Under the pieces are notes generated by a model that ran no database searches, was not told the origin of the DNA, and saw only the letters and a list, made by a program, of their open reading frames with translations. The position numbers and the translations under genes were made by a program. This document shows positions 13,420 to 29,954 of a stretch of 64,000 nucleotides of DNA, piece after piece. The first letter of the stretch is position 1; every line of letters begins with the position of its first letter. Source of the stretch: Niastella vici (GTDB lineage Bacteria > Bacteroidota > Bacteroidia > Chitinophagales > Chitinophagaceae); NCBI RefSeq assembly GCF_002077945.1, contig NZ_LVYD01000113.1, positions 124,001-188,000 of the forward strand, in the 5' to 3' direction.

Positions 13420-15120
13420 CTAAAATCCCGCAGCATTCATGGTTTTACAAAACAACGGGTCAGCCGACAATAGTTGAATAGTTTTCCTTCCGGTATAATT
13501 AGCCGCCTCCAGGGCCATGCTTTTCACAAATGAAAGCAACCGGTCTTTTCCCGTATTATTACAATACAGCCTTTCCAGCACCATCGCACTTTCAGGCGCC
13601 GGTACCTCCGGCTTGTCAGTTGAAACTGCATCGGGAAAACTGAACCAGGCACAGCACAACAGGCGGCCATTCTCTGTGCAGGTATAACAATGTTGTTTAT
13701 CTTCGAAGCGATGCATGGCATCTGACAGGAATGCCCACCTGGTTATATCCACCCTTTTTTCCTGTTTAAACTGCAACAGGTCATTCAGGTTGTCTTTATG
13801 CAATGATATTTTTACTGATGATAATGTACTGGTATCAACCTGATACAGTTTTTGAATTTGTTTTCCCTGTATTTTTTTTACCAGCGCTTTAACCGGATCT
13901 GACCAACGCCAATGCCGTACCCGGTAAAGGAATTTTTTCAGGTTAAGCTCTACCGACATAGGTCTGATACCCGCAGCAACAAGGCGGGCATGCATCTTAC
14001 TTTTTATTTTCCTTTTCGTACGAAATTTCAGTTGGCTGCTGATCACCCATTCCTTTACTTCATCATGCGCATTGGCCAGTTCTTCCTTATAAGTATCATA
14101 CCCCGCGGTAAGGTCAAAACAGGAAATACCTGCTGCCGACAGCTGTTTGAATAATAATACAAAATTCATATAGCCCGGTGAATAGTACCTGCTGTTAAAT
14201 GGCGCATGGCAGTTGATGCCGGCCAAATGCACCCACTTATCCTTACCGGTTACCGCCACCACAGCGGCCATCATTTTTCCATCCACATTCAATACGGTTA
14301 CATGAAGCAGGTTAAGGCGGAACAACTGCAACAGGAATTCTTTTTTTGCGGGATCATCCCTGAAAGGGTATTTATTGAACAGGGCGCTTTGCCTGAAATC
14401 GAACAGAACGGTCATTTCATTCAAACTGCTTTCAAACTTTGTATAATCATTTATGGTCTCAAACTCAACCTCGCCCAGTTTTTTCAGCCGGTTCAATTTA
14501 TGTTTGAAATGTTTGCGCTGAAACAGGTTCACATGGTTGGGGTTGTTGAAATTTAACAATGGCCGGGTGTACGACTGAATGATACTGTACCGGTTTAATT
14601 GTTTATCTTCTTTTATCCAGTTCAGCGGCGTTCCGGGCGAAAGGAACCGGAATGCTATGGGATGGGCCGGAAATTTTTTCAGAAGAGCGGCCAGGGCTTT
14701 TTTTATGAAAAGTTCTGATTCAGCAGGCGCCGCCAGCCAGGTTTGGTATTGCGCTTCATAATGCCCTGCACCCGCAATTTTACCGCCTTTTCCACCATCG
14801 CCGGCATTTAACAAAACCACTGGCAACAGGCCTTTCAATTGCCCCCTTTCAGTTGCTTTCACCAAAACGGGCAAATGCTGATCGCGGTATAGCCGATACC
14901 AGGCCGTAACAAATGGGCGGCTTTGAAAAACAGTGCCCCATGGGCAACAATCATATAGCATATCCCAGCTTTGTTGGAACGCAGGTTCCAACAACAGATC
15001 AATTACTGCAATGCCTGTTATCACCTCTATGGAATAACCATCGTTGAGCCTTATTTTGTTTTTTACTTCAGGAACAACGTCTTTGTATAATTCATTTTGG
15101 GTATCTGCTGTTGTATTCAT
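13420..15120 (-). CDS. FemAB/BcsL-type GNAT acyltransferase, two-domain (copy A)
   Basis: A 566-residue cytosolic protein, last gene of the EPS operon. Residues about 45-380 form a BcsL/CelD-type acetyltransferase fold (Acetyltransf_6 type): CPWGTVFQSRPFVTAWYRL, LPVLVKATERGQLKGLLPVV, KHFKHKLNRLKKLGEVEFE, KMMAAVVAVTGKDKWVHLAG and a Tyr/Gly-rich YYSPGYMNFVLLFKQL before FDLTAGYDTYKE. A second GNAT-like module follows from about 430 (NGRLLCCAWFSFPD, VLERLYCNNTGKDRLLSFVK). The whole architecture is repeated in the next gene upstream. ATG 15120 matches the paralogue start (MNTT against MSTT); a GTG at 15144 overlapping the upstream stop is the alternative. It probably transfers an acyl or aminoacyl group to an amino sugar, given the DegT aminotransferase neighbour (inference). 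Confidence 0.75.
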   Translation of the reverse strand: MNTTADTQNELYKDVVPEVKNKIRLNDGYSIEVITGIAVIDLLLEPAFQQSWDMLYDCCPWGTVFQSRPFVTAWYRLYRDQHLPVLVKATERGQLKGLLPVVLLNAGDGGKGGKIAGAGHYEAQYQTWLAAPAESELFIKKALAALLKKFPAHPIAFRFLSPGTPLNWIKEDKQLNRYSIIQSYTRPLLNFNNPNHVNLFQRKHFKHKLNRLKKLGEVEFETINDYTKFESSLNEMTVLFDFRQSALFNKYPFRDDPAKKEFLLQLFRLNLLHVTVLNVDGKMMAAVVAVTGKDKWVHLAGINCHAPFNSRYYSPGYMNFVLLFKQLSAAGISCFDLTAGYDTYKEELANAHDEVKEWVISSQLKFRTKRKIKSKMHARLVAAGIRPMSVELNLKKFLYRVRHWRWSDPVKALVKKIQGKQIQKLYQVDTSTLSSVKISLHKDNLNDLLQFKQEKRVDITRWAFLSDAMHRFEDKQHCYTCTENGRLLCCAWFSFPDAVSTDKPEVPAPESAMVLERLYCNNTGKDRLLSFVKSMALEAANYTGRKTIQLLSADPLFCKTMNAAGF

Positions 15121-15140
15121 ATAGGTATTTTTTTGGTTGG

Positions 15141-16829
15141 TCACTGTAACCGGTAAAACCCTGCTTTTTCAAATGCCCGGTCTTCATTACGATCTGTAAG
15201 CAAATAAAAGGAGGAATGCGGATTATCGAGCGCTAACACATTCCCCAGCGATCGCAGGAACAGTGGAAATTGTTTACGGCCTTTTGGATTGCAATAGAGC
15301 GCTGACAATGAAATGATGAACCCTTCTGTTTCATGAACAAATTTGTATGCGGTATTCTCAGCCGGCGCACTGGCTATCCATACACAGGCTAATAACCGCC
15401 CATCTTCGGCCCAGCTGTAACAATGCCCGCCTGCTGTAAACCGGTCCATGGCATCAGCAAGGAATTCCTGCCGGCTATACCAGCTCCCCTGTTGATCATA
15501 CTGCAGCAAATGGTGCAGGTCATCGCGCCTGCAATTCAATAAGCCGGAAGTGGCAAAACCTTTGCAAACGACCCAGCATTTCGATGTCTTGCGGGTGCTT
15601 TTTAATTTGTTGAAAAAAAGGGCAAAGAAGGAAGCTACACCCTGCCTCGCCATATGCATACATTTTCCTCTGAGCAGGATATAGCTCCTTTGCCCTTTTT
15701 TGAACACATCCCTTTTTATCCCAATGCTGGTAGCAGCATTTTTTAAATAGTTGTTGAGCCCGGTTTTTAACCGGTTTGTAAAGCCATGATAATTATTGCC
15801 AATACTGAGTGTATGTGCTACCGAATAATCTGTTGCCAGCGTTTCTTTGTACCCATCGGCGCCGGGGGTAAGATCAAAGACTGTTGCGCCTTCCTGCGCC
15901 AGTAATTTACCCAGCATTAAAAAATGGATGATACCGGGCGAATACCGGGCATAAGCTGCATCAAAGGAATTGATGCCCTGCAAATGAAGCTGCCTGTTAT
16001 CGCCTATACTTACATTGGCGGAAACTATTTTATCATTAATTTTTAATAAAGTCGTGTGCAGGATATTTTGTTGGAACAATAGCAGCAAAAACTTTTTTCG
16101 CCATGGATCAGTTTTAAAAGCAACCTTATTATACATCGCCCCTTTTCTGAAATCAGATTGCAGCGCCAGCTCATCAAATACCCCAACAAACCTGTTAAAA
16201 CCGGTAATGCGTTCAAACGACAATTCACCCATTTTTTTCAGCCGGTTGATCTTTTCGCGCCGGTTCTTCTTTTTTAGCTCACTGGTAAAATGCGCCTCAT
16301 CAATGAGCATGACCGGCTGCGGGGATGTTTTTACAAAACAGCGCTTTTTAAAAACCGGGTCCTTTTTGGTGAAGACCAGTGAAACACCTGCGGGTACATA
16401 TTTGAGCAACACTTTTTTACGGGGAAAAGTGCGGCGAAGCACCTGCAGAGCATTCTTTATAAACGCTTCGTCGTTTGCATCTGCGGTGATCCATACCTGG
16501 TATTCAGCCTGATTGGCCCCGGCGCCGGTTATGAGGCCTTTTTTATCCATTGCCAGGGTAAGCAGTCCCGTAAGTTTACCCGCCTGTTCACCTTTTATCA
16601 GAACAGGCAGCCAGTCATTTTCATATACCCGGTACCAGGTTGCTACAAAAGAAGGGTGCTGAAATACGGTTGCCCAGGGACAGGCGTTGTTGAGCCGGTT
16701 CCACCCGTCAAGGAAAGCTTCGTCGTTAAGCAGGTTCAACACTGCTGACCCCGTCAACAGTTTTATTGATGCCGTTGCAGGTGGAATGGCAACGCCGAAG
16801 GTCTTTATTTTTGTTATAGTTGTTGACAT
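15141..16829 (-). CDS. FemAB/BcsL-type GNAT acyltransferase, two-domain (copy B)
   Basis: A 562-residue paralogue of the following gene, with the same order of two folds. The first is at about 30-370: CPWATVFQHPSFVATWYRVY, LPVLIKGEQAGKLTGLLTLA, KKKNRREKINRLKKMGELSF, INDKIVSANVSIGDNRQLHL and YSPGIIHFLMLGKLLAQEG before FDLTPGADGYKETLA. The second runs from about 410 (RRDDLHHLLQYDQQG, EDGRLLACVWIASAP). Its 5' end overlaps the DegT gene by 16 bp, so the two are translationally coupled. The copies differ in about half of their residues by eye, indicating an old duplication and probably different acceptors or donors. FemAB-like proteins also occur in exosortase-associated EPS loci, but no exosortase is visible here. 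Confidence 0.75.
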   Translation of the reverse strand: MSTTITKIKTFGVAIPPATASIKLLTGSAVLNLLNDEAFLDGWNRLNNACPWATVFQHPSFVATWYRVYENDWLPVLIKGEQAGKLTGLLTLAMDKKGLITGAGANQAEYQVWITADANDEAFIKNALQVLRRTFPRKKVLLKYVPAGVSLVFTKKDPVFKKRCFVKTSPQPVMLIDEAHFTSELKKKNRREKINRLKKMGELSFERITGFNRFVGVFDELALQSDFRKGAMYNKVAFKTDPWRKKFLLLLFQQNILHTTLLKINDKIVSANVSIGDNRQLHLQGINSFDAAYARYSPGIIHFLMLGKLLAQEGATVFDLTPGADGYKETLATDYSVAHTLSIGNNYHGFTNRLKTGLNNYLKNAATSIGIKRDVFKKGQRSYILLRGKCMHMARQGVASFFALFFNKLKSTRKTSKCWVVCKGFATSGLLNCRRDDLHHLLQYDQQGSWYSRQEFLADAMDRFTAGGHCYSWAEDGRLLACVWIASAPAENTAYKFVHETEGFIISLSALYCNPKGRKQFPLFLRSLGNVLALDNPHSSFYLLTDRNEDRAFEKAGFYRLQ

Positions 16830-18025
16830 AAATTACAATCCCAGATTACAAGAAATATACTTTTAATCAGTTGTTTTAATGATTCCCGGGAGTTGGTCCC
16901 TGTTACCGATTGTTGCATTTCTGCTGAACTGGTTGCATTGAGCACTGCATCGGCGATCTGGTTCAATTCAGAAGGGGTCAGATCCTGGTGAACCGGTATG
17001 GCAAACACCCGGTTCCGGAATGCCATGCTCCGGGGAAATTCCTGTACGGGAAGCGAGGGATGTGCATTGCGCCAGAAAAGAATACCTTCCACTCCATAGC
17101 GGCGTAATTTTTTGAGCACCGATGGCGCATCATTTACTTCTACCGGAAATGCAAACGGGCAGGCGCCGGCAGGCAACGCTGCAAATGGACGAGGCACCAG
17201 ATGCCCCAGCTTGTGAAGCAGAAAATAGTAATTTTTTCTTCGCCGTGCAGCCGTGGTGCTGTCAACTACTTTTGGCAACAGGCGCATCGTCATGGCTGAA
17301 GGTGGTGAAAATGGATCACCCAGGGCAAACTCTCTATGCGGATCACACTTCTTTTTCTTAAACCATTTCAACATAGGTTTACAACTCAGATGCATGGAGC
17401 CTATCGCAGCCCAGCGTTCGGCCAGCCAGTTAAAGTGGCGTTTAAACACCCGCCATCCACCCTGCTTAATTGCCGACCCCGGTAGTGGCGGCGGCGCCAT
17501 GGAGATCACAGCGCCCCCATCAGGCACACCATACGTTTTGTACAAACAGAACACACCGGCATGCCCAAAAGACCCAACGGGTTTGTGATCAATTTCAGTA
17601 AGAAATGCCTGGGCCGCATCTTCAAAAAGCAACAGGCCCCGGTCATCGCACCATTGACGCCAGCGCCCGGCATCCTGGGGAAACCCCAGGTAATGTATAA
17701 TGTAAAGCACCCGCACATCGGGCGTGAGCAGGCTTTCCAGGTTTTGAAGGTCCGGCTCCAACAGTTCAGTCATTTTATAATAACGGATATTCACACCCGC
17801 CTGCAGCATGGCTTCCACTTCGCTGCCATGGTGATAGGCCGGCACCAGCACAATATCTTTAGCCCCCAACCCCAGGGTATGACAGGCATTCCAAATGGCA
17901 TGGCGTGCCCTGGAGAACACCCGGCATCCATCATCATTCAGCGGGTAAGGCAAACAGGTTGACTCATTCCTGAAATAAACGTTTATCGGCAATGTTGGCC
18001 AAATGGCCAGTCGGCGTGCCCACAT
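16814..18025 (-). CDS. DegT/DnrJ/EryC1/StrS-type PLP aminotransferase
   Basis: A 403-residue PLP enzyme predicted to transaminate a keto-sugar nucleotide for EPS synthesis. Motifs are LVPAYHHGSEVEAMLQAG (60-77), VLYIIHYLGFPQD, FEDAAQAF with the PLP-ring Asp 136, and FCLYKTYGVPDGGAV with the Schiff-base Lys at about 163. The start is ATG 18025; a TTG at 18034 that overlaps the upstream stop is the less likely alternative. The Lys motif deviates from the common SFxxxKxLTxGEGG form and resembles the subgroup with YKTxxVxDGGA. It is flanked by the active-site-less SDR upstream and the two acyltransferases downstream, so a make-amine-then-acylate cassette is plausible (inference). Confidence 0.85.
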   Translation of the reverse strand: MWARRLAIWPTLPINVYFRNESTCLPYPLNDDGCRVFSRARHAIWNACHTLGLGAKDIVLVPAYHHGSEVEAMLQAGVNIRYYKMTELLEPDLQNLESLLTPDVRVLYIIHYLGFPQDAGRWRQWCDDRGLLLFEDAAQAFLTEIDHKPVGSFGHAGVFCLYKTYGVPDGGAVISMAPPPLPGSAIKQGGWRVFKRHFNWLAERWAAIGSMHLSCKPMLKWFKKKKCDPHREFALGDPFSPPSAMTMRLLPKVVDSTTAARRRKNYYFLLHKLGHLVPRPFAALPAGACPFAFPVEVNDAPSVLKKLRRYGVEGILFWRNAHPSLPVQEFPRSMAFRNRVFAIPVHQDLTPSELNQIADAVLNATSSAEMQQSVTGTNSRESLKQLIKSIFLVIWDCNLCQQL

Positions 18026-18030
18026 AACTT

Positions 18031-19035
18031 TCAATTTCTAATTAATAATTGCTCGTTTGCTACTTCCGCATTCCATCGTTTTTTTTCCACTGCTTCTTCC
18101 TGAAAAATTGGAAGATAGGTCCAATACCAACTGGCAGATTGCAGCAGGCCCTGGCGTAATGAATAGCATGGGTGGTACCCCAGCAATTCCTTTGCTTTTT
18201 CGGCAACTGCTTCGGGAAGTGCATCCTGCTCAGGCCCCGGCTCATGCGCCAGGTCAACGGCAGCAATGCGTGCATCAAATACACTCAGCAATTCTTTCAG
18301 GCACAGGGCCAGCTGAGGTAAAGAATATTTTTCCTCAAAAGTGATATCGTACACCTGGTTCACTGCTGCCGGGTTATTGGTTAGCACCGCTAACAGGTTT
18401 GCCTGTACTACGTTTTCAACATAATTGAAATCGTGTACATACGCACCCGCGCCATTGATCACCGGCGATTCGTGCCGCATCAACTGCATCACGAAGGTTG
18501 GAATAATGGCAGCATACCCGCTACGGGGATCGTGCCGCTGGCCAAAAACATTTGAATACCGCAGCCCGATGGTTTCCATTCCATACAAACTGGCGAACTG
18601 TCCGGCATACAACTCATTGATATCTTTTGAACCATTGCAAAAGAAATCTGACGCATACACAAAGCGTTTCACTTTGGCATCATGTGCAACACCCAGCATG
18701 TTTAAAAAACCGGGCGTATTTACATTATTGATGGTCACGGGGTCGTTTGCTGACCGGGTAGCCGCATAATGGAAAACATAATCTATTCCTTCGCAGGCTT
18801 TTTTACAGGTATGTACATCCCGGATATCGCCATCGGTATAGCCAAACTGTGGATGATTGGCAAAGGGGGCCAGATTACCAAAACGGCCCGTTGAGAAATT
18901 ATCCAGCACACGCACCTTGCTGGCGCCGTCTGTCAACAGGCATTCGGCAAGATGCGAGCCTATAAAACCGGCCCCTCCTGTAATGAGGAAGGAGGACCCG
19001 GCTATTTTTTCTGATTGGTTGGGGGTCAGTTGCAT
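18031..19035 (-). CDS. Extended SDR, WbpP-type sugar-nucleotide epimerase lacking its catalytic segment
   Basis: A 334-residue protein from the ATG at 19035 (a GTG at 19068 is the other option). The NAD-binding end is intact: FLITGGAGFIGSHL with GxxGxxG at 20-26 and an FHYAATRSANDPVTINNVNT stretch. The C-terminal substrate domain matches UDP-GlcNAc 4-epimerases such as WbpP: GLRYSNVFGQR, QLMRHESPVINGAG, VHDFNYVENVVQ. Between them, about 22 residues are missing: after KRFVYAS the sequence jumps through DFFCNGSKD to INELYAGQF. This loses the SSSxYG loop and turns the YxxxK tyrosine into Cys (C-N-G-S-K). No frameshift is involved. It is probably inactive as an epimerase; a binding or regulatory role, or simple decay, is possible. 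Confidence 0.75.
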   Translation of the reverse strand: MQLTPNQSEKIAGSSFLITGGAGFIGSHLAECLLTDGASKVRVLDNFSTGRFGNLAPFANHPQFGYTDGDIRDVHTCKKACEGIDYVFHYAATRSANDPVTINNVNTPGFLNMLGVAHDAKVKRFVYASDFFCNGSKDINELYAGQFASLYGMETIGLRYSNVFGQRHDPRSGYAAIIPTFVMQLMRHESPVINGAGAYVHDFNYVENVVQANLLAVLTNNPAAVNQVYDITFEEKYSLPQLALCLKELLSVFDARIAAVDLAHEPGPEQDALPEAVAEKAKELLGYHPCYSLRQGLLQSASWYWTYLPIFQEEAVEKKRWNAEVANEQLLIRN

Positions 19036-19069: not shown

Positions 19070-22000
19070 TTACTTTTTAAGCAGCTTCAGTGTTTGTATT
19101 TGCGAGTTGGTCTGGATCTTTATGAGGTAAAGCCCGCTGGCCAGGTACGAACCGTCGACAGAAACATAATTTTGAATGCCCGCTGCAGCCCAGCCCTGTT
19201 TCAACACCCTGATCGTTCTTCCCTCGCTATCGTATAACGTAATGCTATAGGGTCCCGGCAGCATTAGCTTAAAATCAAGTGTTGCATTGTTCACAAAAGG
19301 ATTTGGCCGCACCTGCCAGTTTTCAGCCGCCACAGGCAAAGCAGTGGCAACCCTTGCCAGGTTGCCGGGCGGTGCATCGGTAGCCAGTACGCCCAAAGCT
19401 TTAAGCGGGTTAACATTTTCATTCGTTGTAAGGACCACAATGGCGGGATTATAGGTTTGATGGATGCTGGTAGTATATTCAAGACTGTTGACGCCCAATC
19501 CATTAATCAGGGTCACCGGCAGGCCAAACGAAATATTTGCCGTAGAAGATTCCCTGTACAGTATATCCCCGCTACGGGTGCCATCGAAATTGTCGAGGTG
19601 GGTTGAATAGATCACCTTTACTTTACCCGCGGCCTCATTCATTATGACGATGGGCCTGTTCCCTTCTTTGGATGAAGTAACTGCATACAAATTATCCCAG
19701 CTGTTGTTGGGGCGGCGTACCAGTAATGCCATTGTTGGCAGGCCGGCTTTATCGTACCCGGTTTTTACAGCACAGTACAGGGTGCCATCGCTGGCGGCCA
19801 ATACATTTACGTAATTATCGGCCATTCCCTTATTAATGTTCTGAGCCGATTGTGATGCCGGCACTTCGTCGGCCGACCACAGCGTGGGATCGGCGCCGTC
19901 AGTATGCGTTTTAAAGCCAAACCGCTTTGCAGTCTGGTTCGACCAGAATACCCCGATCTTTCCGGGTAAAGCAGTGATGGCGCAAATATCCTCGCTCATT
20001 GCGCCTGAAGCAATGGTGATGGGTGAACTCCAGGTTGAATAAGGCGCATCACTGTAACGAACGAGCATATTGCCATTGCTGCAGGATGCTATCCAGAGCC
20101 TGCCGGTACCATCTTTATCGAGCGTAGCTGTTATTGTTCCGGCCTCAAAAACGATGTTTACATTGGCGGTCCTTTGTGTCCAGCGTTTATAGGTATTTGC
20201 AGCCGGATCATACTCAAGCGAAACAATATAGGAAGTAGCAGAAGCACCCCTGAACAGCAGCATGTGCACCAGGTTGCCCACTACCCGGCAATCGGTCCTG
20301 GAATTGTTTGCGGTGGCTATCGTTAATACATCTGTCCAACTGGTATTATCCAACCGGTAAATTTTTGTACCGGCTGATGTTGCTGCAACCGCCCACCATT
20401 TGCCTGCATAGCTCCATACTTTTGCCTGTGGTATTTCGCGCGTTGTACTTGAGATGGTTACCGGATCAAGGTCCATAAAGGATTGAAAGCACTGCGATGA
20501 AGCCACATTTACAGTATAGGTTTGCCCGCTGGTATAACCGCCACTGAGCGCATTGCCACTAACATCGGTTATTCCTGTATTGCTGTTCTTCACATCTAAC
20601 CGCAGCACGCCGTTTCCGGCCAGCGCCCTTACAGCTACGTCATATGTAGTGCTATCGGTTCCCACCACTTTTACGGCATCGGTGAGCGCCGTGGAAGCCG
20701 CCTGCTGGGCCACCTTCGAGAGGGTTCCCCGCACATTGCCACTGGTGGCAACGGTGATGAAATCTGCCGCATCGACCCCTCTTACTTTTTTGGAAAATAT
20801 AACCCTGTATGTTACCGTGGTGGTATCGGTGTTTTGGTTAACCGGCAATTGCCGGTTGATGCTGGTGACTACCGGCGGCCCGTTAAGATCCTGAATAATA
20901 TAAGTTTCGCCATTGGTAAATCCTGTGCTGATGGCATTACCGGTAGTGTCGCTGATACCGGTGCCGCTACCGTTCAGATCGAGCCGCAGCGTGCCGTTAC
21001 CCTGTACATTACTTACGGTTACATCATAAGCAACGCCATTTGTGCCAACAGGAACTGCTGCCCCATTCGCCAGCACACCGCTTGCTGTTCCCGAAACCGT
21101 GGTCACCGTAAAATCGGCACTATCCACTCCTGTTACTTTTTCTGAAAAGGTGGTCCTGAATGTAATACTTGAAGCATTGGTCACCTGGGTGGCGGGCGAT
21201 AGCCGGTTGATGCTGGTGACTACCGGCGGCACATCAGGAAGCTGCTGCTGAATAATATAGGTTTCACCATTGGTAAATCCTGTGCCAATGGCATTGCCGG
21301 CAGTATCGCTGATACCGGTGCCGCTCCCGTTCAGGTCGAGGCGCAGGGTGCCATCACCCTGTACATTACTAACTGTTACATCATAAATTAACCCATTTGT
21401 ACCAACAGGAACTGCAGCCCCATCCGCCAGCACCCCGCTTGCTGTTCCGGAAACCGTGGTCAACGTGAAATCGGCACTATCCACTCCTGTTACTTTCTCT
21501 GAAAAGGTGGTCCTGAATGTAATACTTGAAGCGTTGGTTAACTGGGCAGCAGGCGATTGCCGCAAGATGCTTACGGTAAATGGTGGCGTAAAGTCAACAA
21601 TATAGGTTTCACCATTGGTATATCCTGTGACAATGACATTGCCGGCAGTGTCAGCGATACCGGTGCCGCTGCCGTTAAGGTCGAGCCGCAAAGTACCAGC
21701 ACCCTGTACATTACTTATTGTTACATCATAAGCAATGCCATTTGTATCAACAGGAACTACAGCCCCATTTGCCAGCACACCGCCTGCTGTTCCTGAAACC
21801 GTGGTCAACGTGAAATCGGAACTATCCACTCCTGTTACCTTCTCTGAAAAGGTGGTCCTGAATGTAACACTTGAAGCGTTGGTCAACTGGGTGGCGGGCG
21901 TTTGCCGCAATATGCTTACGGTAAATGGTGGTGTGCGATCGACCATGTAGGTTTCACCATTGGTAAATCCTGCGCTTATGCCATTGCCGGAAGTGTCGCT

Positions 22001-23539
22001 GACACCGGTGCCGCTACTGTTCAGATCGAGGCGCAAAGTACCGTTACCCTGTACATTACTTACTGTTACATCATAAGCATCGCCACTTGTACCAACCGGA
22101 ACTACAGCCCCATTTGCCAGTACGCCGCTCGCTGTTCCGGAAACCGTGGTCAACGTGAAATCGGTATTATCAACGCCCGTTACTTTTTCCGAAAAAGTGG
22201 TCCTGAATGTAACACTTGAGGCGTTGGTCACCTGAGTGGCGGGTGATTGCCGCAAGATGCTTACGGTAAATGGTGGCGTGTGATCGACATTGTAGGTTTC
22301 ACCATTGGTAAATCCTGTGCCAATGGCATTGCCGACGGTATCTGTGATACCGGTGCCGCTATTGTTCAAATCCAGGCGCAGGATACCATCACCCTGTACA
22401 TTGCTTACTGTTACATCATAAGCAATGCCATTTGTACCAACCGGCACTACGGCCCCATTTGCCAGCACACCGCCTGCTGTTCCGGAAACCGTGGTCAACG
22501 TGAAATCGGTATTATCAACACCCGTTACTTTTTCCGAAAAAGTGGTCCTGAATGTAACACTTGAGGCGTTGGTCACCTGAGTGGCGGGTGATTGCCGCAA
22601 GATGCTTACGGTAAATGGTGGCGTGTGATCGACATTGTAGGTTTCACCATTGGTAAATCCTGTGCCAATGGCATTGCCGACGGTATCTGTGATACCGGTG
22701 CCGCTATTGTTCAAATCCAGGCGCAGGATACCATCACCCTGTACATTGCTTACTGTTACATCATAAGCAATGCCATTTGTACCAACCGGCACTACGGCCC
22801 CATTTGCCAGCACACCGCCTGCTGTTCCGGAAACCGTGGTCAACGTGAAATCGGTATTATCAACACCCGTTACTTTTTCCGAAAAAGTGGTCCTGAATGT
22901 AACACTTGAGGCGTTGGTCACCTGGGTGGCAGGTGATTGCCTCAGGATGCTTACAACAACCGGCGGAGTTACATCTTTTACCCCCGACAATTGCATATCA
23001 AAAGCCAGGTCTGCATTGTTGCCCGTTTTTTGATGAATTTCAGCGGCGATAATATTATTGCCATTTACAAAAGCAGATGTATTAATAGTAAAAGCCTGGG
23101 TAACCGTTCCATTATCACTGGCATCTTTACCGGTAGTTAAATAATTGACACTTCCCGTGCCCATATTATTCCGGTACACTTCCACCCCATTTACATAAAC
23201 CACCACGCCATCATCCCTCAATACACCGGCAGTAAAAGAGATGAAGTGGGAAGTGTCTGAAACAGCAATGATCTTTCTGAAGTAAGTGGTAATATATTTC
23301 TGTTTTGAGTCGGGCCCATAGCTTACAATGGTTGAAAGCCCGCTGAGCCCATACCCAAATTTACCATTCCCGGTTTTCCAGGAAGCATCGCTGAATGCAA
23401 GGGATCGCCAGGCAGTACCCTGATCTGTACCGTTATCGAGGTACTTCCAGCCTGAACCATAAGCGAAGATCGAGGTTTGCGCAAATACATTTTCCCTGCC
23501 TAACAATAAAAACAGGCAGAATAGGACACACGTTTTCAT
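19070..23539 (-). CDS. Giant secreted Ig-repeat protein with T9SS sorting domain
   Basis: A 1489-residue surface or secreted protein inside the EPS operon. Residues 1-20 are a signal peptide (ends VFAQ). About 22-188 form a galactose-binding-like sandwich (GVLRDDGVVVYVNGVEVYRN, IIAAEIHQ). Seven Ig-like repeats of about 115 residues follow at about 190-985, each starting near PPxxxSIxRxxPxxQ; the first six carry VTFRTTFSEKVTGVD, and the seventh has diverged. About 1000-1395 holds blades like those of BNR/sialidase propellers (VWSYAGKWWAVAATSAGTKI, DGTGRLWIASCSNG). A type-A T9SS sorting domain closes the protein (about 1405-1489, VRPNPFVNNATLDF to LKLLKK). It may bind or anchor the EPS made by the operon. 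No catalytic residues are recognised. Confidence 0.85.
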   Translation of the reverse strand: MKTCVLFCLFLLLGRENVFAQTSIFAYGSGWKYLDNGTDQGTAWRSLAFSDASWKTGNGKFGYGLSGLSTIVSYGPDSKQKYITTYFRKIIAVSDTSHFISFTAGVLRDDGVVVYVNGVEVYRNNMGTGSVNYLTTGKDASDNGTVTQAFTINTSAFVNGNNIIAAEIHQKTGNNADLAFDMQLSGVKDVTPPVVVSILRQSPATQVTNASSVTFRTTFSEKVTGVDNTDFTLTTVSGTAGGVLANGAVVPVGTNGIAYDVTVSNVQGDGILRLDLNNSGTGITDTVGNAIGTGFTNGETYNVDHTPPFTVSILRQSPATQVTNASSVTFRTTFSEKVTGVDNTDFTLTTVSGTAGGVLANGAVVPVGTNGIAYDVTVSNVQGDGILRLDLNNSGTGITDTVGNAIGTGFTNGETYNVDHTPPFTVSILRQSPATQVTNASSVTFRTTFSEKVTGVDNTDFTLTTVSGTASGVLANGAVVPVGTSGDAYDVTVSNVQGNGTLRLDLNSSGTGVSDTSGNGISAGFTNGETYMVDRTPPFTVSILRQTPATQLTNASSVTFRTTFSEKVTGVDSSDFTLTTVSGTAGGVLANGAVVPVDTNGIAYDVTISNVQGAGTLRLDLNGSGTGIADTAGNVIVTGYTNGETYIVDFTPPFTVSILRQSPAAQLTNASSITFRTTFSEKVTGVDSADFTLTTVSGTASGVLADGAAVPVGTNGLIYDVTVSNVQGDGTLRLDLNGSGTGISDTAGNAIGTGFTNGETYIIQQQLPDVPPVVTSINRLSPATQVTNASSITFRTTFSEKVTGVDSADFTVTTVSGTASGVLANGAAVPVGTNGVAYDVTVSNVQGNGTLRLDLNGSGTGISDTTGNAISTGFTNGETYIIQDLNGPPVVTSINRQLPVNQNTDTTTVTYRVIFSKKVRGVDAADFITVATSGNVRGTLSKVAQQAASTALTDAVKVVGTDSTTYDVAVRALAGNGVLRLDVKNSNTGITDVSGNALSGGYTSGQTYTVNVASSQCFQSFMDLDPVTISSTTREIPQAKVWSYAGKWWAVAATSAGTKIYRLDNTSWTDVLTIATANNSRTDCRVVGNLVHMLLFRGASATSYIVSLEYDPAANTYKRWTQRTANVNIVFEAGTITATLDKDGTGRLWIASCSNGNMLVRYSDAPYSTWSSPITIASGAMSEDICAITALPGKIGVFWSNQTAKRFGFKTHTDGADPTLWSADEVPASQSAQNINKGMADNYVNVLAASDGTLYCAVKTGYDKAGLPTMALLVRRPNNSWDNLYAVTSSKEGNRPIVIMNEAAGKVKVIYSTHLDNFDGTRSGDILYRESSTANISFGLPVTLINGLGVNSLEYTTSIHQTYNPAIVVLTTNENVNPLKALGVLATDAPPGNLARVATALPVAAENWQVRPNPFVNNATLDFKLMLPGPYSITLYDSEGRTIRVLKQGWAAAGIQNYVSVDGSYLASGLYLIKIQTNSQIQTLKLLKK
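20890..22975. repeat. Tandem 345-bp coding repeats (Ig-like units)
   Basis: Six closely related units with a period of about 345 bp (115 codons) lie within the giant T9SS protein gene. The two units around 22247 and 22592 appear identical for roughly 400 bp when read with a 345-bp offset; the others differ at scattered positions. Such identity points to recent unequal crossing-over or gene conversion, and the repeat number may vary between strains. Confidence 0.9.
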
Positions 23540-23598: not shown

Positions 23599-24642
23599 TC
23601 AAAAAGCAGCTTTATACACTTTGTGGCTGAAGATGGTAAGGAAAACGATCTTTATATCGAGCCAGAACGACCAGTTCTCAATGTACCAGAGATCGTGCAG
23701 GGTGCGTTGTCTTTTTTGTTCTTCTGTATCGGTAGGTCCCCGCCAGCCGTTCACCTGCGCCCAGCCGGTTAAGCCGGGTTTTACATATTGCCTGAGCATA
23801 TAATGGTATACATTCAGCTGCAACTGCCGGTTCAGGTACCGCCGGTGCGGCCTTGGGCCCACTACGCTCATATTACCTTTTAAAACATTGAAAAACTGAG
23901 GCAATTCATCGATGCTGTATTTTCTTATTATTCTGCCAAACCGGGTGATCCTTGGATCATTTAATGTGGTAGAGCAAATACCATCTGCAGAATTATCGTT
24001 CTCCTTCATGCTTCTGAACTTGTATACTTTGAAAGGCTTTCCGCCTTTTCCGATACGGATGGCGGAATAAAAAACAGGGCCTCGTGATTCCAGCTTTATT
24101 ATAGCACCAATAACAAGAAAAAGTGGCAGCAGCAGCAGCAGCGCTGCAACGGCGAATATTTTATCAAAACAATTCTTAAAGAAGGCGGCCATTTTTCCGT
24201 CAGTGGGCAGTTCCCTGATGTTCACGGCATCAACCTGCCCAAACCGGGTGATCCTGTAATGATTGCCAAACAATTCATGATAATCCAATACATATTTAAC
24301 CCTGATGCCATGGTAATCGGCAACTGTCAAAATTTTTTGTATGGCCCCTATCTGGTTATCGGGCAAGGCAATAACGATCTCATCAATGGGATTCGATTGC
24401 AGGTATTGATCAACTGAATCCAGATCGGTCAGCACCTTTCTATTCTCGATCATACAGTCTTCCTGGTTATCGCAGCTAATAAATCCCTTTAGATGATAAC
24501 CGTGGTAATGACTTGTGAGCACCTCGTCTTCAATTCTTTTTGCTTTATTCCCCGTACCTGCCACAATAACGTATTTCGGGTTGGAGGGAAGTATGTCAAA
24601 TGCCATGAACGGGATCGCACGTCTCTGTTTTACAACGGTCAT
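23599..24642 (-). CDS. Undecaprenyl-phosphate sugar phosphotransferase (initiating transferase), short form
   Basis: This enzyme starts EPS repeat-unit synthesis by moving a sugar-1-phosphate onto undecaprenyl phosphate at the inner membrane. Residues about 24-140 form the Rossmann-like CoA_binding_3-type domain (YVIVAGTGNKAKRIEDEV, IDEIVIALPDNQ). One membrane helix lies at about 160-183 (VAALLLLLPLFLVIGAIIKL). The catalytic domain carries YKFRSM, the DELPQ motif (245-249), VGPRP (261-265) and GLTGWAQVNG. Family members of the WcaJ type are usually about 460 residues with four or five N-terminal helices; here that block is absent, and only 44 bp separate the start from the upstream gene. Function is still likely, since the catalytic half alone suffices in short (PglC-like) relatives. 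Confidence 0.88.
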   Translation of the reverse strand: MTVVKQRRAIPFMAFDILPSNPKYVIVAGTGNKAKRIEDEVLTSHYHGYHLKGFISCDNQEDCMIENRKVLTDLDSVDQYLQSNPIDEIVIALPDNQIGAIQKILTVADYHGIRVKYVLDYHELFGNHYRITRFGQVDAVNIRELPTDGKMAAFFKNCFDKIFAVAALLLLLPLFLVIGAIIKLESRGPVFYSAIRIGKGGKPFKVYKFRSMKENDNSADGICSTTLNDPRITRFGRIIRKYSIDELPQFFNVLKGNMSVVGPRPHRRYLNRQLQLNVYHYMLRQYVKPGLTGWAQVNGWRGPTDTEEQKRQRTLHDLWYIENWSFWLDIKIVFLTIFSHKVYKAAF

Positions 24643-24686: not shown

Positions 24687-25427
24687 TTATTTTTCGATAC
24701 TGATCTTAAAAAAGCTTGTAGTGAGATATGAAATGAAGTAATTGCCGAAAAAGAACCGGCCGGGCCTTCCCAGCCGGTTTGGAGAGAGCCATACCACCTC
24801 CGGATTCCTGAATCCGGATTCCTTCAATAATTTAATCCAGGTATGTGGCTGCTGATGTTTATGCCATTCAATAGTTGGAACCAACCTGTTTTTCATTCCC
24901 ACATCGTTAAAGAAATTATTACAGGAACAATCCGTTACTATCAGCGTGGCTTTTTTCTTCATTACCCGGTAAACATTTTTAAAAATGTTTACATATCGCC
25001 TATAGCTGGTTTCATTTTTCAATAAATGAATGCATGCTTCCTCGTCGAGATGGTTGATGGAGTTATACATAATGACCACATCAAAGGTGGCGGGTTTGGT
25101 TTGCTGTAAAAACTCCTGCAGGGTAAACGGCATCAATTCAACGGGCAACGTTGCCGGAAATGCCTGCTGCAGATCACGGAATGCGTTGATCACTCCCCGG
25201 GTCGATCCTGCCTGTTCCGGTTCCAGGCAAATGGCTTTTTTAGCGCCTTTAATGGCCGCATAAAACGTGAGCAGGCCTTTGCCGCCGCCCACATCCAGCA
25301 CTTCTTTTTGTGCCAGCTCTACATGTTCAAAAAGATTGTCGAGGTGAAATTTGAGATTTTTCTTACTGGAATACATTTTCCGGTTGACCACCTGGTCAAA
25401 AAAACCTGTTTCAATTTTCTGTGCCAT
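24687..25427 (-). CDS. Class I SAM-dependent methyltransferase
   Basis: A 246-residue cytosolic methyltransferase. Motif I is VLDVGGGKGLLTFYAA (about 40-55), motif II CLEPE with the acidic residue binding the SAM ribose, and motif IV VVIMYNSINHLDEEA. C-terminal to the fold come VMKKKATLIVTDC and WHKHQQPHTWIKLLKESG. The N-terminal 35 residues are basic and may hold the substrate. Position between the AlgD-like dehydrogenase and the initiating transferase in the EPS operon suggests O-methylation of a sugar or lipid-linked intermediate (inference). Confidence 0.8.
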   Translation of the reverse strand: MAQKIETGFFDQVVNRKMYSSKKNLKFHLDNLFEHVELAQKEVLDVGGGKGLLTFYAAIKGAKKAICLEPEQAGSTRGVINAFRDLQQAFPATLPVELMPFTLQEFLQQTKPATFDVVIMYNSINHLDEEACIHLLKNETSYRRYVNIFKNVYRVMKKKATLIVTDCSCNNFFNDVGMKNRLVPTIEWHKHQQPHTWIKLLKESGFRNPEVVWLSPNRLGRPGRFFFGNYFISYLTTSFFKISIEK

Positions 25428-25502: not shown

Positions 25503-26810
25503 TTACCAGCAGATGCCCTCATAATTGGGCAACGCTTCGAGATCGTGGATCCTTACCAGATCTATAATAGCTGTTTTATCTTTTAACAAATGTTGATATT
25601 GTTTGGGGTCAAAATTCCTGTGACTGATGATCACTACATCATTTTCTGCAATGGACTGTTCAAGGTTGTTACTTAGGTGCTCCGATAAATGGGGCAGGCG
25701 TTCATTGATGTACGCCTTGTTGGCGCCAATGAGTTTTGAAAGACAAACATATTCATCATAAATGGTAACATGATACCCCTTCCCGATCAGGGTTTCGGCC
25801 AGTTCAACGAAAGGACTGAAACGCAGATCATCGGTACCTTCTTTAAAGCTTAGGCCTACCATACAGATGTTTTTCTTCCCCGTATCGTTTATTAATTCAA
25901 ATGCTTTTCGCCGGTGCTGTTCATTCGAGGAATTGATCACTGACAAAATGGGGGTATCAAGGTAATTGTCGTGCCCCAGGGTTACAAGGCCTTTCAGGTC
26001 TTTCGGCAGGCAGGAACCACCAAAGGCAAATCCCGGTTTTAAGTAAGCGGTTGAAATATTCAGCCGGGTGTCTTTGCAAAAGAGCTCCATTACTTTAAAC
26101 GGATCGATGTGCAACGATTTGCAGATGGCGCCCACTTCATTCGAAAAAGCGATCTTGAGGGCATGGAAGGAATTGTTGACATATTTTATGATCTCGGCCA
26201 CTTTAACATCCGTTATTTCAATGGGCGCATCGAGACAACGGTATAAAGAAGCCACCTGCTCCATGGCGAACGTATTATCGCCACCTACCACTGTAACCGC
26301 GGGGTGGTAATAATCATGGACGGCCGTTCCTTCCCGTAAAAATTCAGGATTTGAGACCACTGAAAAATCAACGCCCCTTTTTTTACCTGAAAATTCTTCT
26401 ATGATGTCGCCATAACGCCGGTTGGTGCCGGGGATCACCGTGCTGCGAATGACCACTGTGTGAAAGCTATCTTTTGCCCGCAACGCTTTTCCTATTTGTT
26501 CTGCCGTTTTGAAAATATAGGAGAGGTTCAAATGCCCATTCGAAGAAGGCGGTGTACCCACACAAATAATGCTTACTTCAGTATTCAACACCGCCTCCTC
26601 AACGAATGGGGTTGCTGATATACGGCCTTTTTCAAATCCTTCGCCAATGATCTCGTTAATATCTTTTTCCTGTATCGTGGGCCGGCCATTGTTGATGAGC
26701 TCAATTTTAAAATTGCTTACATCAACACCTATCACTTCGTGCCCGTTCTTTGCCAGGCAGCCAAGGCTGACGCAGCCAACATATCCCAAACCAAAAATTG
26801 AAATTTTCAT
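25503..26810 (-). CDS. Nucleotide-sugar 6-dehydrogenase, AlgD (GDP-mannose) type
   Basis: A 435-residue NAD-dependent dehydrogenase that oxidises C6 of a nucleotide sugar twice to give a uronate. The N-terminal Rossmann fold is MKISIFGLGYVGCVSLGCLA. Active-site residues are in place: NPEFLRE (Glu 156/160), Lys 209 in EIIKYVNN, Asn in the same helix, and the catalytic Cys 267 in FAFGGSCLPKDL. GLSFKEGTDDLRFSP follows. From recall, the length, numbering (Cys 268 and Lys 210 in Pseudomonas AlgD) and even the C-terminal EGICW agree with GDP-mannose dehydrogenase better than with UDP-glucose dehydrogenases. The product would then be GDP-mannuronate, an alginate precursor. UDP-glucose remains a possible substrate. 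Confidence 0.88.
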   Translation of the reverse strand: MKISIFGLGYVGCVSLGCLAKNGHEVIGVDVSNFKIELINNGRPTIQEKDINEIIGEGFEKGRISATPFVEEAVLNTEVSIICVGTPPSSNGHLNLSYIFKTAEQIGKALRAKDSFHTVVIRSTVIPGTNRRYGDIIEEFSGKKRGVDFSVVSNPEFLREGTAVHDYYHPAVTVVGGDNTFAMEQVASLYRCLDAPIEITDVKVAEIIKYVNNSFHALKIAFSNEVGAICKSLHIDPFKVMELFCKDTRLNISTAYLKPGFAFGGSCLPKDLKGLVTLGHDNYLDTPILSVINSSNEQHRRKAFELINDTGKKNICMVGLSFKEGTDDLRFSPFVELAETLIGKGYHVTIYDEYVCLSKLIGANKAYINERLPHLSEHLSNNLEQSIAENDVVIISHRNFDPKQYQHLLKDKTAIIDLVRIHDLEALPNYEGICW

Positions 26811-28925: not shown

Positions 28926-29954
28926 TTAACTATGAACTGTAAACTTTGAACTATTAACTGCAAGCTGCAAGCCGGGAGCCCTCCCCAATGACCGCTTATA
29001 CACAGCTATAATGCGCCGGGCAACAGTTCCCTGATCGAGCCCCAGTGCTATGAGCCGTTGCCTTCCGCTGGTGCGCCCATGCGTTTGCGAGAAATGTATT
29101 GCCATCGCTATTTTTTCCGCAAAATCGGTTGCATCAAATGAAGCAAGATAGCAGCCCTTTGTTTTACCAAACACCCAGCGTACATCACCCACATCGGTTG
29201 AAACAACGGGACAATTGCAGGCCATTGCTTCCTTGATGACATTGGGCGAGCCTTCCATAAACGAAGGAAAAACCAGCACATCCGCTTCATTCAAATAACG
29301 TGGCACATCGGCATGCGATACAGGATAAGGACATATCAGTTCTACAGGCGACCCTTCCAGGTAACTCATGGCAGCCTGTACCAACGGAAAATTTTTACCG
29401 GGTTTTGTTTTACTGGCGAGGAACAACACTTTCATCTTTCTATTTTCCCCTGAATGATCATTATTTATTACCCGCCATTGCGGTTTGAATTTTTCCAGAT
29501 TCACGCCATTGGGAATAACGAAAGATTTATGCCTGAGGTACACTGATTCTTCTATGTTCGCCGATTTGGAAATGATGGCTTTTACAAAAGGTTGTATGAG
29601 CCAGGTAAGAAACGAAGAGATCCTGCTGCTTAATTTAACCTTGTTCTTCCCTTTATATTCCCCATTGGCATCGCTGCCCATTAACGACAATACTACAGGT
29701 GTTCTTCTACCTGCTCCTATAAGGGCGGCATAACCGGAATAAATAAAGTGTGCATGAATAAGATCACAGGGTTCCCTTTTCAGCAATTTGCGCAGACTGA
29801 ACCCTGCTTTTATATAACCCCGCAAACCTTTTCCCACAACCGGATAATATTCCACTTCAATTCCTTCCGCTTTCAACGACTCGCCCTGCTCTTTAATAAA
29901 AGGAGCGATGTCGAATTCTTTACTATTACCGCTACAGACGAATAATATTCTCAT
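28926..29954 (-). CDS. Glycosyltransferase family 4 (GT-B)
   Basis: A 342-residue GT4 enzyme. The N-terminal domain begins MRILFVCSGNSKEFDIAPF and holds LIHAHFIYSGYAALI; the nucleotide-sugar domain holds VLFLASKTKPGKNFPLV and the E-x7-E motif in FMEGSPNVIKEAMACN, followed by PVVSTDVGD. It adds one sugar to the lipid-linked EPS unit at the inner membrane. The last 14 residues (LQLAVNSSKFTVHS) are encoded by the AACTTTGAACT-type simple repeat that otherwise sits between genes, so the natural end was probably near RSLGRAP. Confidence 0.88.
   Translation of the reverse strand: MRILFVCSGNSKEFDIAPFIKEQGESLKAEGIEVEYYPVVGKGLRGYIKAGFSLRKLLKREPCDLIHAHFIYSGYAALIGAGRRTPVVLSLMGSDANGEYKGKNKVKLSSRISSFLTWLIQPFVKAIISKSANIEESVYLRHKSFVIPNGVNLEKFKPQWRVINNDHSGENRKMKVLFLASKTKPGKNFPLVQAAMSYLEGSPVELICPYPVSHADVPRYLNEADVLVFPSFMEGSPNVIKEAMACNCPVVSTDVGDVRWVFGKTKGCYLASFDATDFAEKIAMAIHFSQTHGRTSGRQRLIALGLDQGTVARRIIAVYKRSLGRAPGLQLAVNSSKFTVHS

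Follow-up and report, generated by a model that had tools for sequence, protein, structure and literature searches.

WbpP, TviC and WbgU belong to the GnaB clade, which holds UDP-GlcNAcA and UDP-GlcNAc 4-epimerases. Extended SDRs that are non-catalytic and serve regulatory or structural functions are long established, MAT2B, NDUFA9 and the NmrA-type NADP sensor being examples. Excerpts of a study on Mth380, a WbpP-type protein, name the blocks ASVP, SPYAVSK, YFNV, QRPDSQYAA, QSRDF and DVRHS, with ASVP given among the substrate-site blocks, and state that in Mth375 the residues Asn184, Arg222 and Arg281 bond the UDP diphosphate (PMC12820599). Arg222 and Arg281 would correspond to the arginines of SRDF and RxGD in the proteins considered here. 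In another report every epimerase of its clade B (GnaB) is said to have an associated WbpO homologue (PMC3682973), and a third describes a pseudoenzyme as a protein without the conserved catalytic motifs of its family (PMC10211241).

The gene and its protein

The window, that is, the whole stretch of 64,000 nucleotides of Niastella vici DNA that was analyzed (contig NZ_LVYD01000113.1), contains a pseudo-epimerase gene, PSE, for which losses, orthology, synteny, selection and predicted fold were computed. The gene and the relevant parts of its protein are, in window coordinates:

18031..19035, minus strand: PSE, 334 amino acids, start ATG at 19035, stop at 18031-18033
18958..18981, minus strand: Rossmann dinucleotide-binding loop TGGAGFIG, residues 19-26, invariant in 9/9 genus orthologues
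18748..18771, minus strand: eroded GSVPRS loop, residues 89-96, HYAATRSA, 4 residues missing
18616..18651, minus strand: eroded catalytic segment SDFFCNGSKDIN, residues 129-140, Tyr gone, Lys137 kept
18427..18438, minus strand: VHDF, residues 200-203, in place of SRDF/TRDF of intact relatives, Arg absent in 9/9
18211..18237, minus strand: residues 267-275, where R-x-G-D-x-x-H-S stood, R and G absent in 9/9
18034..18108, minus strand: C-terminal helical tail, residues 310-334, end of model helix 293-333, variable in sequence

The start codon agrees with the ATG starts of the 8 other genus orthologues. Judged by its sequence, PSE is a WbpP/TviC-like extended SDR: it carries the TGGAGFIG loop, matches Pfam PF01370 with 103.8 bits (cutoff 20.9) and has the corresponding fold matches. 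Its closest sequence relatives in the PDB are the capsule protein 10ke/9pmn, WbpP (1sb8) and WbgU, and the alignments displayed for PDB entries split in two stretches at PSE residues 130-135. The TviC model NF011728 gives 194.7 bits, below its curated equivalog cutoff of 760, which is a weak test because two intact relatives (366 and 371 bits) also miss it; by the same model the orthologue of genome G005 scores 282, that of G003 227 and the window protein 195.

Structure prediction, a check suggested in the first-pass annotation, returned a confident model (pLDDT 88.6, pTM 0.88), which may lean to the intact fold because the other 34 alignment rows are intact-type homologues. WbpP-type chains are its best matches, coming first in Foldseek (1sb8 with E 2.3e-28), and the 9pmn, 1sb9, 1sb8 and WbgU chains reach Z 37.2-38.2 in VIA-align. 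In the model, strand 124-128 is followed by seven residues and by helix 136-151, which would carry YxxxK; in the intact control L047 (pLDDT 94.7) the connection is longer and the helix spans 20 residues.

Losses in the window protein and across the genus

The first-pass annotation had read the protein as passing in frame from KRFVYAS through DFFCNGSKD to INELYAGQF, with about 22 residues and the catalytic Tyr gone. The minus strand does encode this succession, with no interruption of the frame, and the loss is indeed in frame. The exact number is 21, since the catalytic segment, counted from the Ala of YA[A/S/C] to the Glu of NELY, has 12 residues in the window protein and 33 in 50/50 intact rows (49 distinct sequences). 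The intact rows comprise 39 loci from the genome search and 11 from the best 80 of 560 confirmed related loci; they were chosen as good matches of at least 250 amino acids, regardless of segment length, with distant SDRs and partial matches omitted. Absence of the Tyr, which is present in 50/50 intact rows, was borne out by both alignments. MAFFT sets S136-K137 on T-K of SPYAVTK and DFFCNG on SSSxYG, with the Tyr inside the gap, and when the alignment is extended ungapped from Lys, C133 stands at its place. A properly placed Tyr, as an alternative alignment might have given, was rejected on these grounds. Hence the window protein keeps an alignable catalytic Lys without the Tyr of the Y-x-x-x-K pair, and reads SDFFCNG at SSSxYG. 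The damage goes beyond the segment first noticed, extending to the GSVP of the GSVPRS loop, the Arg of SRDF and R-x-G-D. Among the substrate-site blocks, GSVP, SRDF and RxGDxxHS are lost, and NVFG and QRxxPxxxYAA are largely kept. PSE thus lacks the catalytic motifs of its family, as a pseudoenzyme does.

Our Niastella sample comprised 10 genomes, 9 of them near-complete. A PSE orthologue is present in 9/9 near-complete genomes, at 52-81% pairwise identity; in the tenth, 61% complete, other relatives were seen and a PSE orthologue was not found. It had been asked in the first-pass annotation whether relatives share the deletion, and all nine orthologues have a damaged catalytic segment, of 12 (window), 19, 21, 24, 27, 27, 29, 32 and 33 residues, in which the leading Ser is the sole residue common to the nine. 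The size of the deletion alone is private to the window, whose segment is the shortest. Only G001, G002 and G005 (3/9) retain a full YxxxK. Lys is kept in 5/9 overall, without Tyr in the window and G007, and both residues are missing from G003, G004, G006 and G009. The GSVPRS stretch measures 26 residues in every intact row (50/50) and in six orthologues, as against 22 in the window, 16 in G006 and 17 in G007, and its Arg is missing in 8/9. Other losses are common to all the orthologues: 9/9 have neither the SRDF Arg, which is replaced by His in 6/9, nor the R and G of RxGD.

Conservation is distributed unevenly along the protein. Among the positions at which 90% or more of the intact rows agree, 36 have been retained in four or fewer of the nine orthologues and 39 in 9/9; 24 of the latter lie within residues 1-128, including TGGAGFIG, D45 and D70. 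All 39 gapped alignment columns before residue 310 fall in the GSVPRS loop, the catalytic segment and the RxGD region. NAD binding is plausible from the invariant Rossmann loop, and would perhaps be partly lost in G003, G004, G007 and G009, because the AA motif after strand 86-89 is changed there. Binding of a sugar nucleotide, which the first-pass annotation had thought retained, is doubtful with two conserved arginines gone in 9/9, though the Asn of NVFG (8/9) and the QRxxPxxxYAA block stay. An altered ligand is possible, because these elements are kept and S172, in the latter block, is a clade-specific invariant, the same in all nine and Gly in 45/50 intact rows. The first-pass annotation had also offered a recent loss of function. 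Since the decay is genus-wide, with the SRDF Arg and RxGD gone everywhere and the remainder decayed differently by lineage, a recent private loss was rejected.

The nine orthologues form one clade with support 100/100 and a long stem (0.64 changes per column). The clade is recovered with the same support when the eroded columns are removed, in a tree that omits L104 and in which the Tyr needs at least 2 state changes; in the first tree the bootstrap was unsettled, with sister-group support of 82/92. The nearest outside rows, G271, Flavobacterium orientale (L047), G045 and G043, are all intact, and their order is weakly supported. A clade profile with threshold E 1e-112 was run against a family set of 394 genomes, including the 10 of the genus. 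Outside the genus six family genomes pass, G271 and five others with six matches, all intact, and in the order set (396 genomes) only those of the window, G271 and G045 pass. At 1e-60, 141/294 family genomes match, among which the returned loci alone were inspected.

Cluster, paralogue and selection

PSE belongs to one and the same exopolysaccharide cluster in 9/9 genomes. A WcaJ-type sugar transferase, the closest upstream neighbour found in all nine, precedes it and two FemAB/GNAT proteins follow (synteny by tblastn at 1e-8 in ~20 kb stretches). In the window its neighbours are:

25503-26810: nucleotide-sugar dehydrogenase, TviB 61.6 bits, three genes between it and PSE
23599..24642, minus strand: polyprenyl glycosylphosphotransferase, WcaJ type, TIGR03025 360.3 bits (cutoff 295.55)
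19070..23539, minus strand: repeat surface protein, Por_Secre_tail, beside PSE in 3/9 genomes
16814..18025, minus strand: DegT/DnrJ-type aminotransferase, close downstream of the PSE stop, start codon placed by eye, in 5/9 genomes
15141..16829, minus strand: FemAB1, GNAT (Acetyltransf_6), found in 9/9
13420..15144, minus strand: FemAB2, second Acetyltransf_6 protein, found in 9/9

Several features of these neighbours may be recorded. The secreted repeat protein also has a Big_12 match, and its gene contains a 345-bp tandem repeat of about six copies (5.9; 89% match) at window positions 20897-22954. The open frame of the aminotransferase (16814-18034, minus strand) overlaps the PSE stop. FemAB1 and FemAB2 form one open frame of 1129 amino acids in G003, G004 and G009 (L044, L039 and L040) and are separate in the other six. 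The aminotransferase is missing from these three genomes, whose PSE has neither Tyr nor Lys, and from G001. A methyltransferase-like gene of the cluster (24687-25427, minus strand) has no match in G003, G004 and G009.

A second relative, with the tested motifs intact, is present elsewhere in 10/10 genus genomes. That of the window genome is placed on another contig, in another polysaccharide cluster, where it adjoins a TviB-like dehydrogenase (581 bits, cutoff 592) and, by reading, polymer-export genes. The intact sister copy of G271 likewise adjoins a TviB-like gene (561 bits), and the intact sisters G045 and G043 have, by reading, no dehydrogenase next door, as is the case for PSE. This gene neighbourhood is therefore neutral as to membership of PSE in the GnaB clade.

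No stop codon interrupts the nine PSE frames. By the simple NG86 method, dN/dS of PSE in five close pairs is 0.078-0.168, at dS values of 0.82-1.54 that are near saturation, and mostly saturated beyond these pairs. In the same pairs FemAB1 has 0.097-0.150 (the G003/G004/G009 pairs covering the fused frame, FemAB2 included), the sugar transferase 0.026-0.065 and the intact paralogue 0.036-0.050. Constraint on PSE is weaker than on the paralogue, because its dN/dS is about two to four times higher. When substitutions were placed at random at 0.4 per site, 0/1000 runs left a frame free of stops for any of three genes; at a density of 0.1 per site, 36, 42 and 44 of 1000 runs did so. These results support purifying selection on PSE.

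Evolutionary distances of PSE co-vary most with those of FemAB1 (residual r 0.72, 2/5000 permutations as high; nine genomes), followed by a deacetylase (0.59, 36/5000), a lipoprotein (0.42, 77/5000), the intact paralogue (0.29, 424/5000) and FemAB2 (0.23, 867/5000); the gene at 28926-29954 was left out, its match being incomplete in one locus. With another baseline the values are 0.54 for FemAB1, 0.11 for the paralogue, -0.04 for FemAB2 and -0.25 for the sugar transferase. By gene order and co-variation FemAB1 is the leading candidate partner of PSE, although as a lead only, because other cluster genes co-vary too.

Proposed function and comparison with known systems

Taking into account that: (i) the damage is genus-wide; (ii) purifying selection has left nine frames without stops, and (iii) the fold is predicted with confidence, we favor the pseudoenzyme proposed in the first-pass annotation, and consider it likely that PSE is an old, genus-wide pseudo-epimerase which lost substrate binding on the stem of the genus and has since been maintained in the cluster as a scaffold or regulator without catalytic activity. 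Probably it has a new, non-catalytic job there in sugar-polymer production. In this model a WbpP/TviC-type UDP-N-acetylhexosamine(uronate) 4-epimerase would already have stood in the cluster when the genus began to diversify. Its capacity to bind the UDP-sugar was apparently lost a single time, on the stem, with the SRDF Arg and RxGD. A protein that no longer took up a substrate would have had no use for its catalytic segment (SSSxYG ... SPYAVTK) or for the GSVPRS loop, and both could then have been trimmed or substituted differently by lineage. The folded core would be held by purifying selection, probably together with the site for NAD and the helices of the SDR dimer. It would be kept because it binds something, so that PSE may now work by binding, as a scaffold or regulatory subunit of a machinery that includes the initiating sugar transferase and the FemAB-type transferases. 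A tentative extension, which we regard as somewhat improbable, would make PSE an NAD(H)-reading non-catalytic subunit docked on the FemAB-type transferase encoded nearby, through which the redox state of the cell would bear on how the polymer is built or decorated in Niastella; the nine species would then be a deletion series in which the substrate site and subsequently the catalytic segment were lost and the new binding role was kept.

Purifying selection would equally be expected if PSE were still an enzyme, with moved catalytic residues, a new reaction or a new ligand. The candidates for such an activity are the retained Lys (5/9, within a complete YxxxK in 3/9), the His in place of the SRDF Arg (6/9) and the QRxxPxSxYAA block with its invariant S172, together with the NVFG Asn (8/9). 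However, if the nine shared a new reaction, residues specific to it should have become fixed in the active site, whereas the eroded segment shares only its leading Ser over lengths of 12 to 33, and S172 is the one listed clade-specific invariant within a block assigned to the substrate site; we hold this explanation to be unlikely. By analogy with prozyme/AdoMetDC, PSE might instead be the inactive mixed-dimer partner of the intact TviC-like paralogue and regulate the supply of GalNAcA. The helices that form SDR dimers are present in the model, and every one of the 10 genus genomes has the paralogue. The principle itself is known for prozyme, as far as the excerpt of that report goes (PMC5201418). 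Nevertheless, the paralogue of the window genome resides on another contig and in another polysaccharide cluster, similar relatives occur in many family genomes without PSE (the 141/294 matching at 1e-60), and its residual r with PSE is 0.29 compared with 0.72 for FemAB1, which makes such a pairing distinctly unlikely.

Decay without function would account for the clearly unconstrained catalytic parts and for the faster evolution of PSE relative to the paralogue, the sugar transferase and the dehydrogenase. Yet a slowly decaying remnant would have to be caught in nine species before its first stop, although random substitution would have broken the frames, and dN/dS is well below 1 in five close pairs, three of them among G003, G004 and G009, whose PSE has lost both Tyr and Lys; it is a very improbable explanation. 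A local assembly collapse, which the first-pass annotation had raised, or an artefact of sequencing could be suspected from the 12-residue version being found in the window alone. The frame is kept, however, a tandem repeat was not found at the eroded segment, and eight other genomes have damaged versions of their own, including a single-contig genome (9,033,684 bases). An artefact is thus extremely improbable, and an assembly slip is ruled out as the origin of the damage because 9/9 near-complete genus genomes carry a damaged orthologue.

For the pseudo-epimerase that we favor, the nine orthologues offer a natural series of the birth of a pseudoenzyme, with graded loss in a fixed gene context and with the intact sisters and the intact paralogue as controls. 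It becomes possible to test whether exopolysaccharide assembly can be served by an SDR core that no longer binds substrate. Moreover, a similarity-based label of 'UDP-sugar 4-epimerase' for PSE genes would mislead predictions of the polymer. We found no report of a dead WbpP-type epimerase in a polysaccharide cluster in the open-licence literature, a weak absence; inactive extended SDRs are already known, and what is new is this case and its graded form across one genus.

Like prozyme/AdoMetDC in the excerpt cited (PMC5201418), PSE would be an inactive relative kept alongside an active one in the genome, but for PSE there is no sign of pairing with the active paralogue. With WbpP, TviC and WbgU it shares the best sequence and fold matches, the Rossmann core, the length and the domain order. 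It differs from them in being without the catalytic Tyr, SSSxYG, the GSVP loop, the SRDF Arg and RxGD, and in having no adjoining TviB-like gene, the dehydrogenase of its cluster scoring 61.6 bits compared with 581 and 561 for those beside two intact relatives. As in MAT2B, NDUFA9 and the NmrA-type NADP sensor, the SDR fold would have been retained as a regulatory or structural part after catalysis was lost; unlike in these, the active site of PSE has been dismantled lineage by lineage within one genus, and in an exopolysaccharide cluster.
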